Below, piece after piece: positions 7,201 through 39,527 of a stretch of 64,000 nt of DNA. The DNA comes from Catenaria anguillulae PL171. Its lineage: Eukaryota; Blastocladiomycota; Blastocladiomycetes; Blastocladiales; Catenariaceae. Both the position numbers and the translations under genes were made by a program. Below the pieces are notes generated by a model. It saw only the letters and a program-made list of their open reading frames with translations, did no database searches and had not been told where the DNA came from. Position 1 is the first letter of the stretch, and each line of letters begins with the position of its first letter. The stretch is from assembly GCA_002102555.1 (NCBI GenBank), contig MCFL01000018.1, positions 62,001 through 126,000 on the forward strand. Reading direction: 5' to 3'.

Positions 7201-8554
7201 CGGCAAGTTTGATGAGGCAGGCATTTCGGCGCTGTTGCTTGAACCGGGCAAGTACCCTGGTTGCACGGGGACGCGCAACTTGAGGGACAATCTGTCCGAC
7301 TTGCGCGCGCAGATTGCTGCGAACCACCGCGGAATTACGCTGTGCCAGGGCTTGATTCGCGAGTACGGGTTGCGCGTCGTACACAAGTACATGGACTACA
7401 TCACGGAAAATGCCGCGGGCGCCGTCAAGCAGTTGCTCAAGGATACGGCCAAGCGGCTCGGCACCAACGTGTTGCATGCCGTGGATTACATGGACGACGG
7501 CTCGCCCATCGAGTTGACCGTGACAATTGACAAGGCCACGGGCCAGGCCGTGTTTGATTTTGAAGGCACGGGGCACGAGGTGTTTGGTAATGTCAATGCC
7601 CCGCCCGCAGTGACCAATGCGGCCATCATCTACTGTCTTCGCGCCATGCTCGACATGGACATTCCCCTGAACCAAGGGTGCCTGCATCCAGTCGACATTC
7701 GCATTCCGAAGGGTTCGCTGCTCAAGCCGTCGGATGCGGCTGCCGTGGTTGGCGGCAACGTCATGACGTCGCAGCGCGTTGTGGATGTGATTTTGCGCGC
7801 GTTCCAGTATTGCGCCGCGTCGCAGGGCGATTGCAATAACTTGACCTTTGGTGTGCCGGCGAGTCAGAATGATGGCTCGGATGGATTTGGGTTCTATGAA
7901 ACGGTGCGCTCTCTGATCTTTGTCGGTAGATGCGAGTTTCGACTTTTTCTCACCTTGGTGTTCTTCTTCGTTTTGCACACATAGATTGCTGGCGGCGCCG
8001 GTGCTGGCCCGACCTGGGATGGCCGCTCGGGCGTCCACACGCACATGACCAACACTCGTATTACCGACGTTGAAATCATGGAACGGCGATACCCAGTGAT
8101 CCTGCGCCAATTTTCGCTGCGGTCAGGCTCGGGCGGTGACGGTAAGCACCGCGGCGGCGATGGCGTGGTTCGCGAGTTTGAGTTTACCATTCCGCTCCAA
8201 GTGTCGATTCTGTCGGAGCGCCGAGTCCATGCGCCATATGGCATGCACGGCGGCAAGCCCGGACGGCCCGGTCAAAACTTGCTTGTGAAGCGAGGCGGGC
8301 GAACGGTCAATCTCGGTGGTAAGAACTCGGTCATGGTGGACGCAGGCGACGCAATCATGATTTGCACACCAGGCGCCGGTGGGTATGGCAAGCCCAGGGA
8401 TAGCCGGTTGAGGGACGAAGCCATGGTGGTTGCAGAAGAAGACGGGAGTACCGGGTCGTCTGTCGGAGAGGTTGAGGTGGACGAGAACGTCAATGTTCCC
8501 TACCGTACGAGTGGAAGTTACTTGCAGCGGACTTTGGATCAGTACAGTGCATGA
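4215..8554 (+). CDS. 5-oxoprolinase (ATP-hydrolysing)
   Basis: Five exons: 4215-5151, 5230-6634, 6698-6795, 6858-7903 and 7985-8554, giving about 1,351 residues, close to the usual size of about 1,290. It would open 5-oxoproline to glutamate using ATP, in the gamma-glutamyl/glutathione cycle, in the cytosol. The N-terminal hydantoinase-A half begins [13 protein letters not shown] and carries [13 protein letters not shown] and AGGSSRLFF. The C-terminal hydantoinase-B half follows [15 protein letters not shown] and holds [25 protein letters not shown] and [20 protein letters not shown]. All four intron junctions rebuild conserved motifs, e.g. [11 protein letters not shown] and [11 protein letters not shown]. 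The ATG at 4215 sits directly before the conserved N-terminus. Confidence 0.95.
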
Positions 8555-9457
8555 GTCCCACTGTGAAGGACTGGGGGTGTGATTTTCAGCTTTTCGTGAC
8601 TTGCATCGTGTTTAGTTGTCTTGTCTCTGTACAGTTCGCATTGTTGTCAAACATTTATGTGTGTCAGAGTCACAGCGGGGACAATCAGACGGCCAGCCAG
8701 TCAGCGCGCGATTCGTCGCGAAGCCTGCACGATGCGAACAAAATCAGATGGGCATGACATGATCCCAAAATGAAAACGGACGGCAGAATACGATAGGCTC
8801 CACTCAGCAATGGATCGATCCACACTTGGATGGACTCGAAATCTCATGATTTTGCCGAAGCGTGCAGAATCAACAAGTTGGAGAGAGAGCCACACTGCTG
8901 ATATTCGAGATCTTGGGTGTTTGCACTCTTAATGTTTTCGATCCGCCTGTTTTCTCGTGACAAATCGTCGTCAAGTCGACTGTCCAGTTCTTGCTGCGAG
9001 CGGACGAGCCCCTGCTGTGCGAAAGTATTGGAAGTAATTGATTACAGGATCCCCCTGGATGAGGAGGTGCCCACTGATGGACGTGCCTGTGTGCGTGTGC
9101 TTTTGTGCTCTCCTCCCTCTCAATGTTAACTTGTCCACGAAGCTTCAGTGCTTTTCGTCTTGCTGTTTTCTGAAGGGCCGCGCCACCACGTCCGCTGTTC
9201 CCAAATGCATCACCATCATTTCTCGACCCAAGGGTTCAACACTCCCATCGAGTCGCCCAGCGGGCTCAACCGTTCTTCGTCGGGCACGCTAAACATGTAC
9301 AAAGCTGCACGTCGACCGCAAGCTTCCCGGATGAAGAAAGCTACGCGATTGACATGTAATCTGTGCATGATTCCACTTTACAAGAAACCAGTAAACAAGA
9401 CAATCGAGCAGCGGAAACACCATGACATGCAGTGCCATCCACGGGCCAATTGCCATT
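8555..9457. other. convergent intergenic region
   Basis: About 900 bp between the 3' ends of the 5-oxoprolinase and E1 genes. Only short reading frames without family features were seen. Confidence 0.5.
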
Positions 9458-14379: not shown

Positions 14380-14786
14380 ATTGGTGGATTCAATGTTGTT
14401 TCTTGCTTGGATTGATATGTATACCCCACTATGAAGTTCCTTTGCTTTTGGCAACAAACATAGTCACTGGCACCTGGCCGTGGGCTAGCCATTGATTGAG
14501 TGCAGCATTGGCAGCCGAATCTGCAGGCCATCAGTACCACATCCAATCCAATTTGTACGGACTTGCAGCTGGCTCATCTCAGCTCAGATGTTCGTTCGAC
14601 TCAGCGTTCGCTCGGTGTCATATTAAGCCGCCCCAATCACTCACAAAACAGAAAATGGCGCGTGATTCTTCTTTCAACACACGCAAAAATGCTCCAAATT
14701 GTAAATACCAAACCTGGTTCAAAATGAATCCCCGGCAAACGGACAACATTCCACCAGAGAAAAATTGAGCAAAAATGAATGGGAAT
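14380..14786. other. intergenic region and former tRNA 3' flank
   Basis: About 400 bp without a gene. The last 27 bp or so (14760-14786) are nearly identical, in reverse, to the sequence downstream of the intact tRNA at 39111-39137 and include its A/T-rich termination tract. Confidence 0.6.
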
Positions 14787-14807
14787 GCCGGCTGGGAGGA
14801 TCGAACT
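14787..14807 (-). pseudogene. 3' fragment of interrupted tRNA-Thr(CGT)
   Basis: The last 21 nt of a tRNA (half of the T-arm, 3' acceptor strand and discriminator A), read on the minus strand. It is identical to the last 21 nt of the intact tRNA at 39039-39110. Its plus-strand end GAAC (14804-14807) is repeated at the other side of the 8-kb insertion. The missing 5' part lies at 22796-22850. Confidence 0.93.
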
Positions 14808-14832
14808 TACTGATCTAATGAACAAGCTCTCT

Positions 14833-14892
14833 GTCAACCACCGTTGCAGATCGCGTGTGTTTTGGTCGCAGGTTGACAAGGACCGTGTCAAC
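14833..14892. repeat. left-end GTCAAC cluster with subterminal inverted repeat
   Basis: GTCAACCAC at 14833-14841 is the exact inverse of GTGGTTGAC at 22763-22771; it lies 25 bp inside the left border, its partner 24 bp inside the right border. The hexamer GTCAAC/GTTGAC recurs at 14872-14877 and 14887-14892. Such clustering is expected for binding sites of the element's own recombinase, which is an inference. Confidence 0.7.
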
Positions 14893-16174
14893 GGCCCCCC
14901 ATTTTTACATGGGACATTGACATACCAATGACAGCCAGTGCGCGCGGACCGCAGCGGGGCATGCGCTCGGGACTTAGAAAAATTCAGGGAAACGGTTAGT
15001 GTGTACGTGGCAAGCGCACAGCGACATTCCCCGCAACAGTTTATCATCCCAGTCCTTTTCACACGCTTGTTTCTGCCCATATCTTCATGCAATCCATCAT
15101 GCGACCCGGGTCTAAACCCTTTGCCATGTATTTACCTCAGTCGCCCTCAACCCACTGTCGCCCCCGGCAACCAAGGCGCAGGCGCCCAACCACTCGCCAC
15201 CGTCACAACACCAGTCCAACACTCTGTATCCACCACAACGACAATTGCATGATCGGATCGCCTCGCCTCCGATAGGCCGCAACGGGTTCAACCACCCACC
15301 ACGCCGCCAGCACGCTCACGCCCCGGCCCCGGCCCGGCCAGGCGCGACTGAAACCGGATCCCGCTTTGCCGGCCGGCCTCACATGGCACATGGCGGGCGG
15401 CGACCTGCCTTGTTCTTTGACGCTTGATCGCGCTTCACGCCACTCGCCCTTGGAGGGCTATCGCATCGCATCGCTATACCATCGCATCGCCGATCACCCC
15501 GCGCCCATGTTGATGGTAGGTTACCCACCCATGATCCTTCCCATGAATCGTCAACGCCGACGCCGTCCCGTACCACTCGCCCACTCCCTATCATGCATGC
15601 CCGTCACCGCCAGACGCACCATATTCACACGCGGGCTTTCTGCCGCTTTGGGCGTCAAATGATGCCGCGCATGCCACACCATCGCCGGCATACTATCGCT
15701 TCTCATTCGCCTCCTCGTCGGCCTCGTGTCGTTCAACCCCACACCTGCCACACTTCTCCGCCCGTCCATGCCCAATCCTCCCAGGCTCGAGGCCACCTCA
15801 ACCATGATCACTCCATGCTTTTTTCGCCCTGTGGTTTTTTCTCTAACGATGCTTTCTCGAACCGAGCAGGTCGTTCGTCACATCACCTCCACCACCAACT
15901 TGCCATCCCGGCTTGCCCAACAACCGTGAGCTGCCCAGCCCGTCCAGACTCACACGACGCCAGCAACAATTCCGATCACGCTTCACACGGCCGTCTCTGT
16001 TCCGCTCGTTGACCTGTTCCACCTCGGCCGACCGGCCCGGCGGCCTGGGCTCGCCGCTCGCAACCGCGGGTAACCGGATGGCAGTTTGATGAGCAGCCTG
16101 ACGAGCTGGTCTTCCGCCGGTCTATGCCTCGATTGATTCTCCATGGCACGCTAGCTGGTCATTTATTCGTCTTC

Positions 16175-16228
16175 CCTCATGCAAGGGACACTTATGTATG
16201 TCCTCATGCAAGGGACACTTATGTATGT
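16175..16228. repeat. 27-bp perfect tandem duplication
   Basis: Two identical 27-bp units, 16175-16201 and 16202-16228, each starting CCTCATGCAAGG and ending ATGTATGT, about 210 bp beyond the recombinase stop codon. Function unknown. Confidence 0.9.
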
Positions 16229-16441
16229 CACGATAAAATTGTGTTGTCTTTCAGATAATGTACAACAACAGGCAACGGGCAGCACACTACACTACACTTT
16301 TCCAACACGGACCCAAGTATACATTGCGCTCATTCGTCCATACACACGCACTTTACACATGCATTCTCGCGAACCCGTCTGAACCCCCTACCAATCAATC
16401 CTATCCCAAGCGATGAATCTTGACCGAACGCAGCAGCACTT

Positions 16442-19400
16442 TTACCGTGCCTTCGCCTTCCCCTTACCCTTGTCCTGCCCCTTGGTTTTGGCACTGGCCT
16501 TGCTCGTCTCTGTTCTTTGCTTTTTGCTCGATGGTTCACCCGAGTTTGACGAACCCCCCCGTTTGAGCGGCCGCGCCTGTGCTCCTGCAATTGGCGTTGC
16601 GGCAGCACTGCTCTGCTCCACCACCCCAGCCTCTGTGCCCGACCCGCCCCTGCTTGATTCACCTGGCGGCAACCCATCAACCCGCCCACCGCCACTCGCT
16701 ACACCACCACTCGCTACACCACCACTCGCTGCACCGCCACCCACCTGCCAACCCCCTTGCCCACCCGCTTGCGCATGTGCGCTCGCGCTGGCGCCCACAT
16801 GCCACCTCGACGACCCAGCTTGCGAAAGGTCAACACGACCTGCACTGCCACTCGCTGCACCGCCACCCACCTGCCCACCCGCTTGCGCATGTGCGTTCGC
16901 GCTGGCGCCCACATGCCACCTCGACGACCCAGCTTGCGAAAAGTCAACACGACCGGGATACCCGTCGTGCGTACCGGCATCAAAGTCAAAATCATCCGGA
17001 TCTTCACCGTCCTCGCCATCGGCAGCAAACACGGTTCCCGCGGGCGCCATTGCAAATGTGGATGCATGCTCGAATCTGTTGCGAGCCGCACTAGCCGTGC
17101 CTTCATGGGACCAATCCGTATGCATCTCATGCCACTCATGCCAGTCCATGCTTGCTGCGTCGTGACCCAGGGAATGGCTCGAGCTCGCACGGAATGCGGG
17201 GTCCATGGACAGAGTGGATGCCGCCGCGCTTTCTGGCTGTGGTGGCGGGGTTGGTGCGTCGCCGCCGTGCAGGGTTGACGTCAAGGATTGAGGTGCGATG
17301 GCGGCGGCATCAGTGACCGAGGGCGACGCCGAGGGCGACGAGAGCGATTCAGGCTCGGCCTGTTCGGATTCGACTGCAGAGGTTGATCCTCGCACAAAGG
17401 CATGCTTGAAGGCGGATTCGATGCGGCATTTGACAATGTCGCGGTGTGGTGCGAAAAGGTTGTTGCCGCTGTTGCCGCTCGGGATAAGTGAGATTGCGGT
17501 TGCGGATTCAAGGTGATCCGTTGACTGTGTTGGTGACAATGCGGTGAATACCTGTTATTGTGGGCAAGCAATAACATGAGTGGCAGTGAAGTGTGCAACA
17601 TTGCTCAGTTTGATATGGTCATTACATACCTCCTTGCCACCACTCATGTGCTGTACAACCTTTAGCTCCTTGATCCCGTTGCTGATTGCCGTCAGCGAGT
17701 CGCTGGGTTTGCGCTCAGCCACCTCAAGAATCAACTTGAGAGCCTCCCACGCATGGTCGCGATGGTACTTCGAGAGGGACGCAACTGCATCGAGTAGCAA
17801 GAGCAGCGGCCGCATGTTGCTCCAAACTTGGCGGTCATTGCGACTTGTCCACGCCGTGCTAAACTGGTTGACGAGCGCCCGCATTGGCGGGTGCTGACGT
17901 ACATCCGCCGCCCGAATCATGCCTGGCTCATCGCCGAATGGTGTCCCGTACTGTACAATGCTGCCAGTCGCCTTGAGCACGTAAAAACCGTCGTACCAAA
18001 ACTCAACCAGACCTTCAAGGGTCTGCATGTCACCGACACGCGGCAGTTTGTAAGTGGACTGAAGCAATAAGTAGCCATCCTTGGCCTTCCATTGTTCGTC
18101 CGGGACGAGGCTAAAAAAGAGGAACCAATCGATATCCCCTGTGGTGCGCATTAGCGCTTCCAAGCGCGAATCGACGGCGTCCAGCTGGTTGCCCAGCCTA
18201 TCCTTGTCCTTTTTAAGAAACATGGAAATTGGCAGCAAGAGCTTGTCGGCGTGATTCTTGTCGGCGAGTTTCTGTACATGTGATGCACTGAGAATCTGAT
18301 TGATTTGACGCTGCGTAAGCGTCAAAGGTGCAGGTGCGGGTGCAGAGACAGACGATGCCAAGTGTGCTTGATTTGCAGCGCGAACAAGGTCCTTGTGTGG
18401 CACCGTTGGTTGGATGATGCGCTCGGAATGGTTGCGACTGGTGGCGGATGACGACGATGCAGATGCATGCGGCGATAACGAATCCAGAGGGCCAGGTGGC
18501 GCCGTCGTGGTGGAGCCACGATTCGAGTTCTGTGCGAGCGGGGACGACGATGATGGTGGTGGCGGTGGACGCATTGTGATGGTGGCAGCGGTGGGTGAGC
18601 TTGAGCCGGCAGAATACATGTCGCTATCCTGATGCCCTGATCCATCGTGCCCGCCATCGTGGCCGGCATACCCGACATCGTGCCTACCTTTCTGCCCACT
18701 GCGTGTGAGCTCCAGGTCAGCTGCAAAGGGGTCGGGCTGCTGAAACGCGGCTGCGTGGGCTGGTCAATGTGGAGAAAAAATTGTGTAAAGTGAGAGTCAG
18801 CATGTTCCCATGGCCAGAATATGAACCTGCAACGCACTATTGAGCGATCCAAGGAAGTCCCTTGCTTGCTCTCTCTGCTCCATCGCAATCACATTCGCAA
18901 TGTTGAGTTTCTGCGACCGTTGCACATTGGTCATGCGCTGAGCTGCGGCCTCGGCCTCATCCAACACACTTGCAACCATGGACTGCACGTAGTCCTGTGG
19001 TCGAGGGGTCGACGGGCGGGAAGACGATGACGACAAGGCCATGGACCGACTTGGCGGCACTGGCGTCATGGTTTCCGTGAACTGAGGCGGACGGTACGCA
19101 GCCGAGCGAGAGGTTGGGGCCGTGGGTGCTTGCATGGAGCCGTCAAGGAGCGGTTTCAGACAAAACACCTTGAGCAGCGTATTGACGCCGTCGTGCAAAG
19201 AAGAAACGAGGTCGCGGACGGTCGCGATCTCCTGGTTGTTTTGCTCGATACGTGCACGCAGGTCGGAAAAATGCGTTTGGCTGTAGTTTGCGAGGGCATT
19301 GACGGCGGCATTGTTGGAGCTGGCGATACTTGATGGAAGATTGTTGACGAAATGTTGAAAGTGGTAGCGTGAGGCGTTGGCGAAATGGAGGAAGTTGGGG

Positions 19401-22011
19401 TGGCAGCCAATCCAGCCATCCACACCATTCTCGAACAAAATACCCAAGTTCGACAGCATTGGCCTGACGCTCGCAGGCTCGGCTTGCGCGAATGGGAAGA
19501 GCGCATGAGCGTTGGAATTGGTTGCGCGGTCGCCAGCTTCTGCGTCAGTGTACTTGAGATAGAGCTCGCACATGTGCTAATCATACAATAAATAGACCGT
19601 GCGTTGAGAGTTAAATAATGGCGACCATGCTCATACAAAGGGCATGCCAGAACGTACAGCAATCACGTATCGGCGCGAGTGAATCAACTTTTCCAAAAAC
19701 TTGATGCGAGACGCAAACATGAGCTTGTTCCCAGCAGCGTCGTCTTCCGTCGCGGCACGCACACGCTGCAAAACGTCCTCGGCCCATGGAAACACCTTGG
19801 CCGCCAAACTGGCAGGAACCTTTTCGTTGGCAACAGCGACGCGCGGCACAAACACCTCTTCATGCAAGCCAAAGCCAGCACAAACCTTGACAACCTGAAA
19901 GAAAGACAGACATCGAGGGCAAATGGATCAGAAATCCGCCGCGAATGAGCGCCCGTTCTACATACCTCGTGCGCGATCGCTTTTAAAGCGTACACGTTGC
20001 TGAATACGTTGCTCGTCCACTGGCCATGGTGGGAGACGCGGTCTGGGTGACACCCTTGCTCAACGGCCTCGGTTGCCGCAAAAAGGCGACCATGGTGGCC
20101 AACCTTGGCGTTGGTGAATTCGGCGAGCTCGTAACCTTTGTTGAGTCGTCGATTAATGGTTGAGTTCGTCATTTGCGTGAGGCGGTCCTTTTGCGCGCTG
20201 AGAAGAAAGTGCTAAGCAAGCATGAGCAACGAAAAAAGATGAATTGAAGTGGTGGAGTGAGCATCAGCATGTGCGGGAAACGCATGGAAGAGTAACACAG
20301 AAGCGATGAACCTTTTCTGGTGAGCGGTCCGTGTCGACCCCAGTCCAATCAATGACAGAATGCAGGCCATCGACATCGAAAATGTAATGGAGCTGGAGTA
20401 GTTGGAAGCCAACCGCGTCCAAAATGGCATGCTTGTGCGGTGCCATTGTCATGATCTTGGATTCGTTCACCTTGTTCTTCCATTTGCAGTCAATGACAAT
20501 GTTGGAAATGCCGTGGTCAAGGTAATCGCGCAAACTAGACAAAGAGATGTCAGTTAGACTGATGGTGGATAGTAGATTGTGGGATCATGCCCGTACTGGT
20601 CGTTTCGGCGTGTGATGGGTTGGATCTGGGCGAGAGACAATGAAACAACCTCATCCGACCGGCAGCCAGCAGCGTGCAGAGTAGTCCACAAACATGCGTC
20701 CCGGACTGCGACACGCACTGCAATCATGCAAGAGAAGGATAAATCAGATCATGGGTAACGGGTTTAGACAAATAAATCATGTGAAACGTACACTCGTCCG
20801 AACTGCCAAGCAGCCCAAGCGCGACGCGCTTAATGTCCTCCCATGTTCCCACATCATTGATGGTCCCCGCTGCAATATCACCAACCACGCCTCTATGGAA
20901 GTGTGGGAAAGGACAGTGAGATGGTATGTCGGGAATGGAACACAAAGAAACGTACTTGCGCCTCCTAAAGAGCTCCTGTTTGCTCTTGGCCTTGAGAAAG
21001 TCCTTGACCTCTTTTGAGAAAGGGTCGACCAAGTCAGGGTTGGACGCGGCTTGCCGTTTCCAAAGCGTGTAAATGGAAAATGCATGCTTACGAAGAGAGC
21101 TCTGTAAATGGTGAAAGTTATTACTCGTGAGTTGAGAAAATTGAGCGATTGACGATGTGAGGCAAGAGATTGCATAGAAGCGTACGGCAGAAAGAGGACG
21201 GTTTGTGTTCTCGTAGCCATTGGGAGTGCGGCGAAGCGCAAAGCGCTCGCTTTGTGCAAGCAGGAATTCCATGAATGATTCTTCGGTCACAAGATAGCGA
21301 GTTGCCCGTGGACGAATCGAGTACTTTTCGTCGCAATGACGCTGGAATAGAAACAGGGGGGTGTCGTGTCAACTATACATGTACGACGAACGCGTTTGTG
21401 ATAACATCTACTTTAAAAAGTGCGCAGGCATCTTTCAAGACACGGAGACCAGCGTCGCGCTTGGAAAGGATGTATTCGTTGGCCATCTTATCTCGGAGGC
21501 GCTGCTTTTCCGTCATGTCTAGAATGTGCGTAGAGTAGATGACACGCAATAAGCACACACAGGTTGCCAGGGGACAGATGCTAACACATAGGTGCCCTAA
21601 CGCACCTTTAGCAACAACCAAGTTGCAGAAAACGTCTCCTCCATCATCCCCTTCATTGGGTTCGTTGTCATCATCGTCTTCAACGAGCGCTCCTTCGGCT
21701 TCTCCTTGTTCCATCATATCCTCAGGGTCAAGACCAACCGCATCCGCATCGGCGGCCACTTGACGAGCACAATCGCCAAGCAAACTATCAGCAATTTGCT
21801 CGTGTTCCGCCTCTTTCAAAATCGCCAACTCGCGGGCGGTCGCACCGCCATCGTCATCATCCTGGGCGTCCTGACTGGCTCCAGCGGGAGAACGGCGAGT
21901 GCTGGCGACAGAATCATGGTTCGCAGTGGTGATGGGGGTTGTGGAAAGCGCGGTGCTGAACGAAAGTTGAGCTGCTGCTGCGGGCGGACGGGGAGGCTGT
22001 TGCTGGGACAT
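16442..22011 (-). CDS. large tyrosine recombinase (Crypton/Starship-like)
   Basis: Twelve exons are proposed: 22011-21606, 21518-21412, 21341-21186, 21101-20956, 20892-20792, 20717-20639, 20534-20312, 20211-19966, 19894-19658, 19576-18827, 18739-17630 and 17551-16442. They total 1,557 codons in frame. Order: acidic N-terminus; helical core-binding-like region; catalytic Arg in HAAGCRSDEVVS (about 325); Lys in the KWKNK hairpin (about 350); HxxR in VGHHGRLFAATE (445-448); HHGQW (467-471); Tyr in SNVY (about 480); then a VFPW segment, a coiled region (ARIEQNNQEIATVRDL), a Pro/Ser linker, an unknown domain around TGDIDWFLFFSLVPDEQW, and a Gly/Ser-rich tail ending in Lys-rich, NLS-like KKQR and KGKGKAKAR. 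The recombinase would cut and rejoin the element and the tRNA target. The exon 6/7 junction is the weak point: it needs a GTCTCT donor, as the better-looking GTACGG donor (20596) breaks the frame. Confidence 0.85.
16690..16954. repeat. in-frame coding repeats in the recombinase tail
   Basis: A 15-bp period repeat (about 16690-16740) is followed by a 114-bp period repeat: 16761-16874 and a second copy from 16875 to about 16954, nearly identical over 80 bp. Both periods are multiples of three, and the larger repeat encodes duplicated AGSSRWHVGASA blocks in the C-terminal tail. Confidence 0.85.
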
Positions 22012-22560
22012 TGTCGATGGTTTTGGATTCGAAAAGCTCGGTCAAGTCAGGTTAAAGTGCGCAGAGTGGCATAGGGGTGGCATAAGGGTTGCATGTGGTT
22101 CACTTGCTCAATATATGTTTGTACGCTTTTGTTGGCTACACTGTCGTGTGCATCGAGAAAGTGTTGTGTGCATGAGGTTTAGTGGCAAGCGAGCAAGCCC
22201 AGGTGTATTGATGTGATGGCTCGTGTCTTGCGTAGCCATGTCTCGCACATTAATGTTACGTCTCTTGGTTGCTCGCATGTCTCAGCCCACTAGTGCTCGT
22301 GTTTCTTTGTGTGCTTGAACTAAGCTTTGCATCATGGACGAACTGGCGATGCGGTGCCATCGGCAGTGGTAAATACCAGGTAGCTCCGCGCAGCATGCTG
22401 CACACGCCGTCCATTGACTCGGACATGGGGGACGGTGCGAGAGTAATGGGCAGTTTGAAAGGTCAGCGAAAGTGCATGTATTGATAGCTGGTTGCAATGG
22501 TTGGTTGGTTGAATGGAGGCATCGTCGAGATAGCATAGTGCTGAGGGATATGTGGACAAT

Positions 22561-22674
22561 AAAGGCATATGGCCAACAAAAAAAGGCATATGGCCAAAAA
22601 AAATGGACAACAAACTAAATATGATTTGGATATGATTTAAGATATGATTTAAATATGATTTGGATATGATTTGG
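22561..22674. repeat. AT-rich direct repeats near the right end
   Basis: A 16-bp unit (AAAGGCATATGGCCAA) occurs at 22561-22576 and 22582-22597. Then five 11-12 bp units of ATATGATTTRR type follow at 22619, 22630, 22642, 22653 and 22664. They lie about 120-230 bp inside the right border. Regulatory or recombinase-binding function is only a guess. Confidence 0.85.
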
Positions 22675-22731
22675 ATCGGTGGTGGACTGTGGGAAATGGC
22701 GATCGGCAAGCGTTGCGCGTGGCTCGAGATG

Positions 22732-22771
22732 GTTGACAGAGGCACGTTGACACGGTGTTCATGTGGTTGAC
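22732..22771. repeat. right-end GTTGAC cluster with subterminal inverted repeat
   Basis: GTTGAC occurs at 22732-22737, 22746-22751 and 22766-22771. The last is part of GTGGTTGAC (22763-22771), the inverted partner of 14833-14841, 24 bp from the right border. Just outside, CACGT (22771-22775) and ACGTG (22786-22790) form another small inverted pair. Confidence 0.7.
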
Positions 22772-22795
22772 ACGTACTAGTGGTGACGTGCAGGA

Positions 22796-22850
22796 GAACA
22801 CCCGACCTTCGCTTTACGAGAGCGACGCTCTGCCACTGAGCCAAGCCGGC
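22796..22850 (-). pseudogene. 5' fragment of interrupted tRNA-Thr(CGT)
   Basis: The first 55 nt of the tRNA on the minus strand: acceptor 5' strand, D-arm, anticodon arm with CGT, variable loop and T-arm up to GTTC. All 55 positions match the intact copy at 39039-39110. About 45-50 bp upstream of it also resemble the flank of the intact copy. The element cuts the T-loop and thus the internal B box, so the copy should be non-functional. Confidence 0.93.
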
Positions 22851-38763: not shown

Positions 38764-39038
38764 GGTTCAAGTTGATTGCATAGGGTGCTTGTGACGGTCT
38801 TGCCCACTAATACTGTCACGTTATAAAATGCATTCGTTCGCTATTCTCGAAGCCCACCGTGATGGACGACAGGTGATCGAGGCAACATGGTCTCGCGCCA
38901 GATGCAGGCACACAGTGCACATGGATGGATGGCTGCCAGGCTCGCCCTCAAGGCATTGTTGATGCCCAGGATTTTCGAGCTTTATTCAAAGCGATTGGGG
39001 CCAGCGGGCCATAAATTATGGCGGGATCGGCCTTCCAA

Positions 39039-39110
39039 GCCGGCTTGGCTCAGTGGCAGAGCGTCGCTCTCGTAAAGCGAAGGTCGGGTGTTCGATCCTC
39101 CCAGCCGGCA
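39039..39110 (+). tRNA. tRNA-Thr(CGT)
   Basis: Intact 72-nt cloverleaf: acceptor stem GCCGGCT/AGCCGGC with discriminator A, D-arm GCTC/GAGC, anticodon stem TCGCT/AGCGA with loop CTCGTAA (anticodon CGT, reads ACG), T-arm loop TTCGATC. There is no intron. The A box TGGCTCAGTGG is perfect. The T-stem has one U-U mismatch. A T-rich stretch within 25 nt downstream can end Pol III transcription. The gene and its flanks match the interrupted copy at 14.8/22.8 kb. Confidence 0.95.
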
Positions 39111-39527
39111 TTTCCATTCATTTTTGCTCAATTTTCAACATTGGAAATGTTGCCCGAGTCCAGGGCTCCATTTTGCTCAAGGTTGGACACAGTTTGGAGC
39201 ATTATTGAGTGTGCTGCCATCGTTTTTGGGTGGAGGTACCGCGGTTCAGGATCGGGAGTCGAGTTGGTGCATCCCACGGTCGACGGATGCAGTATTGCGC
39301 GTTTGGGTCAAATCTGAACAACCTCACTTCGTTCGCCGCACACTTCCGCCGCGCCGCACAATCCAAGCGCAACCTGAACAACCCGGCCGCAAGCATCCAT
39401 TCACAGCCCATTTTGCTCTCCAATGTGAAATATTTACAATATTTACATAAATTCCATGGATGGTTCTTCATTGACTACATGCAAAATCGTTAATACATCT
39501 ACTCAACTCACTCATTCGAACTCCACG
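39111..39527. other. intergenic region after the tRNA
   Basis: About 420 bp. The first 27 bp or so match 14760-14786 in reverse (shared tRNA 3' flank). The rest, AT-rich near 39430-39450, is probably the promoter of the next gene. Confidence 0.5.

Follow-up and report, generated by a model that had tools for sequence, protein, structure and literature searches.

Integrative elements of Bacteria and Archaea that encode a tyrosine recombinase cross over in the T-arm of tRNA genes, which is the classic target of such islands in both domains. Among eukaryotes, Cryptons are described as DNA elements with a tyrosine recombinase, direct repeats of 4 or 6 bp and no terminal inverted repeats (Kojima and Jurka 2011, PMC3212892). 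The same paper proposes by analogy that Cryptons move as a circle, describes a C-terminal GCR1_C domain in CryptonF and derives the Ndc10/Cbf2 gene from a Crypton (PMC3212892); the word tRNA is absent from its main text. Some CryptonV families are reported to be target-specific, with microsatellites as targets (PMC8869645).

Repeated targets are also described for the tyrosine recombinases of nimaviruses and polinton-like viruses (PLVs), e.g. telomeres and 28S rDNA (PMC10871703), and the PLVs of cryptophytes are reported to have no tRNA genes within 1 kb on each side (PMC12220804). The fungal Starship Osiris (Enterprise family) breaks multicopy 5S rDNA, with repeats longer than 6 bp there, according to PMC12153272. 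Dictyostelium retrotransposons integrate in the flanks of tRNA genes, and Dictyostelium DIRS-1, a tyrosine-recombinase element, is reported to prefer DIRS-1 copies (PMC5006619). Among the literature matches listed, which took in few subscription papers and lay outside Repbase, none describes a eukaryotic tyrosine-recombinase transposon inside tRNA genes.

The 8-kb element analyzed here is very probably a Crypton-like DNA transposon that has been active recently in its eukaryotic host, carries its own tyrosine recombinase and uses multicopy tRNA T-arms as attachment sites. It resembles Cryptons in its tyrosine recombinase, in 4-bp repeats without terminal inverted repeats and in that no reverse transcriptase or DDE family was found in the parts scanned, but differs from them in its size, its 1,582-aa, 12-exon gene model, the GCR1_C domain not found in it and its T-arm target. 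Unlike bacterial and archaeal islands, it sits in a eukaryotic host and has introns, its repeat is only 4 bp long and the tRNA 3' end is not supplied by the element. Nimaviruses and PLVs likewise bring eukaryotic tyrosine recombinases to repeated targets, whereas no recognised virus gene is present here.

Split tRNA-Thr gene and element borders

ARAGORN and Rfam call a single tRNA, an intact tRNA-Thr(CGT), in the window (the whole stretch of DNA analyzed, 64,000 nt). A second tRNA-Thr gene lies in two parts on either side of the element (Table 1), and no tRNA is called at its 5' part. Joined on the minus strand with one GTTC kept (22850-22796 and 14806-14786), the two parts are identical to the intact gene at 72 of 72 nt. 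The sequence-only reading had located the 55-nt 5' part correctly but had placed the 21-nt 3' part at 14807-14787, one base too high; the join over a shared GTTC holds with the corrected coordinates and fails with the original ones. Likewise, the border at 22795/22796 stands, and the one drawn at 14807/14808 moves to 14806/14807. That a discrete mobile element entered a tRNA-Thr gene that had been complete, as that reading had also claimed, is borne out by five near-identical copies at five loci and by 12 uninterrupted tRNA-Thr(CGT) genes.

Table 1. Positions in the window of the split tRNA gene, the element and the features of the element
Feature	Position	Strand	Remarks
5' 55 nt of tRNA-Thr(CGT)	22796..22850	-	nt 1-55 of the intact tRNA, identical; ends in left core GTTC 22799-22796
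3' 21 nt of tRNA-Thr(CGT)	14786..14806	-	nt 52-72 of the intact tRNA, identical; starts with right core GTTC 14806-14803
Element, 7,989 bp without core	14807..22795	-	four further full copies, near-identical: C90 (2), C98 (1), C133 (1)
Intact tRNA-Thr(CGT)	39039..39110	+	uninterrupted paralogue of the target; ARAGORN, Rfam
Three TGTCAAC motifs, 24-64 bp inside left end	22732..22772	-	22772-22766, 22752-22746, 22738-22732; motif count
Three TGTCAAC motifs inside right end	14832..14892		14832-14838 (+), 14872-14878 (-), 14886-14892 (+)
Tyrosine-recombinase gene, 12 exons, 1,582-aa model	16442..22011	-	hand gene model without transcript support; open in 3/5 copies
Exons 1-6	22011-21606, 21518-21385, 21341-21186, 21101-20956, 20892-20792, 20717-20597	-	hand model
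Exons 7-12	20534-20312, 20211-19966, 19894-19658, 19576-18838, 18759-17630, 17551-16442	-	hand model
Presumed catalytic Arg I codon (R334, CRSDEV)	20659..20661	-	in stretch matched by XerA/XerC/XerD; outside aligned part of C1 relative
HxxR motif HHGR (H468, R471)	20086..20097	-	kept in C1 relative; within PF00589 match
HGQW motif (H491, W494)	20017..20028	-	kept in C1 relative
Presumed nucleophile Tyr codon (Y503, NVYA)	19990..19992	-	kept in C1 relative

The outer flanks of the split locus had been taken to match those of the intact copy, and they are similar: with the tRNA part included, identity is 88.9% over 99 nt on the 5' side and 77.1% over 131 nt on the 3' side. Outside the tRNA, the likeness reaches ∼44 nt on the 5' side and ∼110 nt on the 3' side. 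Other tRNA-Thr(CGT) copies have flanks of this kind too, so the flanks are the mark of a tRNA family unit and not of an exact empty allele. Together with these short flanks, tRNA-Thr(CGT) genes recur as a unit at many dispersed loci (window 38995-39216; L016-L021, with 74-93% identity to the window's flanks, tRNA part included), as if the tRNA gene itself spread as a repeat.

A search with both flanks for an exact empty allele of the window locus, which the sequence-only reading had proposed, found none and matched contigs C252 and C349. C252 is 97% identical to the left flank (L055, C252:1201-2200) and, after 18 nt of a degenerate tRNA-Thr start, continues in DNA matching nothing in the window; it possibly holds a different insertion. 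C349 is homologous on the right side, but the element right end is present there too.

Copies and insertion sites in the assembly

We searched the window's own assembly, a 41-Mb draft of 457 contigs. The left-junction query gave 17 matches, namely five element left ends, of which three carry the tRNA-Thr 5' part and two do not, and 12 tRNA-Thr regions without the element, all 12 called as intact tRNA-Thr(CGT) by ARAGORN. The right-end query gave six matches. The sixth, on C349, runs into a flank 95.8% identical to that of the window over 1.5 kb, so it represents the same locus in another haplotype or a duplicate and was not counted as independent.

Full copies are present at five loci: three on C90 (including that of the window), one on C98 and one on C133. 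Over 8 kb they differ pairwise by 0-2 substitutions and 0-6 gap events, and those on C98 and C133 have a 32-bp extra stretch in common. An assembly artefact, in which two tRNA halves were joined around unrelated sequence, might be suspected in a draft of so many contigs, but the same ends recur at five loci on three contigs, with the right end on a fourth, and with two kinds of tRNA; we consider its probability negligible.

In the three C90 copies, both borders lie inside the tRNA-Thr T-arm, and their outer flanks have nothing in common beyond the tRNA-unit flank of ∼44 nt (5') and ∼110 nt (3'); for the right flank of C90b, the tRNA 3' end alone is in common. Since these outer flanks are unrelated, the three copies represent independent insertions into tRNA-Thr T-arms. 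At least one border lies at the GTTC of a tRNA T-arm in four of the five independent element loci (tRNA-Thr and tRNA-Arg), a result for which random choice among GTTC sites gives P ∼8e-12 to 2e-9 with 300 to 1,200 tRNA genes, numbers that were assumed and not counted.

Targets are wider than tRNA-Thr, and include a tRNA-Arg(ACG) T-arm on C133 and a non-tRNA site on C98. The right side of the C133 copy reads GTTCGAATCCTCCCGGGATCG, the 3' end of the tRNA-Arg(ACG) gene, with the border in the T-arm, and its left border is a GTTC 17 nt 3' of a tRNA-Cys, outside tRNA genes. An intact, inverted twin of the tRNA-Arg gene lies ∼7.7 kb away (L013, 5907-5979). Compared with the twin, 1,064 bp between two GTTC sites are missing from the interrupted locus, including a tRNA-Ala and the 5' part of the tRNA-Arg, and both borders are on GTTC.

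The tRNA-Cys/tRNA-Ala/tRNA-Arg segment forms an inverted duplicate on C133 with 99.5-99.6% identity (1-216 and 8234-9273 vs 17202-16987 and 15936-14898; L012, L013). C456 has two matches in opposite orientation (79%).

The copies could also have spread without transposition, by segmental duplication or gene conversion of repeats that contain tRNA genes, and the dispersed tRNA-Thr units with their similar short flanks, the inverted duplication on C133 and the repetition of the right side of the window locus on C349 are in line with such a process. This origin is nevertheless highly unlikely, as the three C90 copies have outer flanks that are alike in the tRNA unit alone and the element, with complete ends, is also found at a tRNA-Arg gene and at a non-tRNA site.

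The C98 copy, which has complete ends and neither border in a tRNA gene, offers a view of the core. Its insertion site has an uninterrupted homologue on C13 (∼92% identity on the left side) with the sequence CTTGATCTGG, whose core is GATC. The left border of the copy is CTTG-TTC-TCCTGC and the right border CAGTAAG-ATCTGG, so that the left GTTC agrees with the element and the right GATC with the target; the other four copies have GTTC at both ends. A staggered-cut duplication would give GATC twice, and the element therefore seems to bring its own core, in the manner of site-specific recombination, a reading that draws on one site and one homologue and that a C13 paralogue or a point mutation in either copy could mimic. 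The 4-bp duplication of the sequence-only reading is present as a GTTC repeat, for which a shared recombination core is a better interpretation than a target-site duplication. By eye, the C98 site resembles a T-loop in another register, which we left out of the argument.

These borders also bear on a Dada-type DDE transposon, which would make staggered cuts in tRNA genes and leave target-site duplications. Dada elements, too, occupy a fixed place inside tRNA genes as a multicopy safe haven, one family duplicates GCGTTCA, and in some copies the two flanks belong to different genes (PMC3706591), as they do for the copy on C133. However, Dada duplications measure 6-7 bp and the repeat here 4 bp, the two C98 borders differ (GTTC and GATC) while the uninterrupted homologue has GATC, and the element has tyrosine-recombinase residues in place of a DDE transposase, with no DDE family in the parts scanned. 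We regard a Dada origin as very improbable.

Recombinase gene and element ends

The recombinase gene is the only gene modelled in the element and contains 11 introns of 43-100 nt each. These introns, together with the UBA1 neighbour, indicate a eukaryotic host, perhaps a zoosporic fungus, in agreement with the sequence-only reading, which had noted introns in the recombinase gene. With the exon borders of the window copy, single-base indels interrupt the 1,582-aa frame in C133 and C90a; these indels may be sequencing errors. The last exon contains a 114-bp tandem duplication and 15-bp repeats (window 16687-16954).

Along the protein, the motifs follow the order R, HxxR, HGQW, Y. A 376-aa core matched PF00589 (E = 6e-4), the phrog_216 integrase (0.0067) and, in NCBIfam, XerA (0.0015), XerC (0.0097) and XerD (0.022), all below the curated cut-offs where such exist, PF00589 included. 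The PF00589 E-value rose to 0.0017 with a 600-aa query and to 0.064 with the whole 1,582 aa; NDC10_II matched the 600-aa query at E = 0.15, and single exon ORFs had no integrase profile match. The matches are co-linear, XerC and XerD covering the Arg I box and PF00589 the HxxR-Y half. The profiles alone are weak; combined with the residues and the junctions, they uphold the claim that a tyrosine recombinase is encoded.

A relative of the gene on C1 (L046, C1:1267300-1269280), with 79% identity in the aligned part, which stops short of Arg I, retains H, R, H, W and Y and has no tRNA gene in the 10 kb examined and no recognised element ends. Between the two, 49 of 219 residues of exon 10 are changed, with 26, 29 and 61 differences at codon positions 1, 2 and 3 (61 of 116 at the third), a bias that suggests modest constraint. 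A degenerate copy on C298 (L047) has internal deletions and stops and has lost the HxxR arginine; further, weaker genome matches lie on C440, C453, C41, C2 and C257. Sequence searches with the recombinase gave no homologue in the protein database at E-values up to 10 and none in the PDB, and viral contigs yielded no relative (59 pattern matches, 0 confirmed).

An exon-by-exon scan of the genome for PF00589 gave nothing at E ≤ 0.001, with 6 candidates scored and 14 of 14 control genomes positive, and scans for GCR1_C and NDC10_II gave no match, nor did any of the 14 control genomes. In the protein, Pfam searches of limited sensitivity found no GCR1_C in the C-terminal part and E = 0.14 only in the part before the HxxR-Y half. 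The ∼940 residues after the core had no match better than E = 0.09. No reverse transcriptase or DDE family was found in the spliced protein, the exon ORFs or 11 of the 20 ORFs (≥ 50 aa) of the 1.6 kb after the gene, and these 11 had no recognised domain. Weak matches judged to be chance were GNC1_N, Peptidase_C7, HET-S, DUF7255, Takusan, Cactin_mid, DctQ, EF-G-binding_N and phrog_23238.

At the element ends, TGTCAAC is clustered: six of the seven occurrences in the element lie within 100 bp of its ends, compared with 12 in the remaining 56 kb of window DNA. In 20,000 first-order simulations of two 100-bp pieces, the motif occurred 0.04 times on average and at most twice, against the six observed. 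Compared in inverted orientation, the ends are alike at 6 of 20 positions, i.e. there are no terminal inverted repeats. The circular arrangement, with a left end joined to a right end, occurs at none of the five left ends in the assembly, although circles need not be represented there.

A small Starship-type element, with a captain tyrosine recombinase and little cargo, would likewise be a tyrosine-recombinase element disrupting a multicopy RNA gene, 5S rDNA being another Pol III gene. Starships have the recombinase at one end and short direct repeats, some break 5S rDNA, and 18 of 20 high-confidence Starships have terminal inverted repeats (PMC12153272). The present element lacks such repeats, measures 8 kb with one recognised gene against ∼20-700 kb with cargo in Starships, and has no DUF3435 match in Pfam scans, though divergence may hide one. 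This affiliation is very improbable.

Mechanism and significance

The element has discrete ends and a recombinase-type gene, has inserted repeatedly and has targeted T-arms, and its C98 borders fit an element-carried core. Five copies at 0-2 substitutions in different places count in favor of recent transposition. As far as tested, it works like a Crypton and agrees with the broad definition of the group; as GCR1_C was not found and the placement is by features rather than by tree, we do not file it as CryptonF.

Mechanistically, the recombinase would bind the element ends, with the TGTCAAC clusters as putative arm-type sites, and the element would be excised as a circle with joined ends TAA-GTTC-TCC (predicted junction TAAGTTCTCC). 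The core of the circle would then recombine with a GTTC-like target core, mostly the GTTC at the T-loop start of tRNA-Thr or tRNA-Arg, which we take to be part of the Pol III B box. Recognition of T-arms could depend either on the DNA sequence itself or on contact with Pol III factors bound at the B box; the borders outside tRNA genes show that a GTTC-like core is sometimes enough. The struck tRNA gene is broken and not rebuilt, no tRNA being called in the interrupted tRNA-Thr genes scanned; with many intact copies present, the loss of one such gene would be tolerable. The 1,064-bp deletion on C133 may have arisen by recombination of an element end with a second GTTC, or of two inserted elements with each other.

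A bolder and more tentative proposal, which we consider possible but somewhat short of probable, is that the element belongs to a distinct eukaryotic lineage that has converged on the strategy of bacterial islands: its own 4-bp core and arm-type sites would act on the tRNA B box in several tRNA families, and its ends would rearrange tRNA clusters by recombining with further GTTC sites.

A eukaryotic, intron-bearing element that chooses T-arms suggests that multicopy, conserved T-arms attract tyrosine recombinases across domains. Circular movement of Cryptons was proposed by analogy (PMC3212892); here, strand exchange can be tested directly, thanks to the near-identical copies and the GTTC/GATC site. 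As a tool, the element could also provide site-directed integration into multicopy safe sites.
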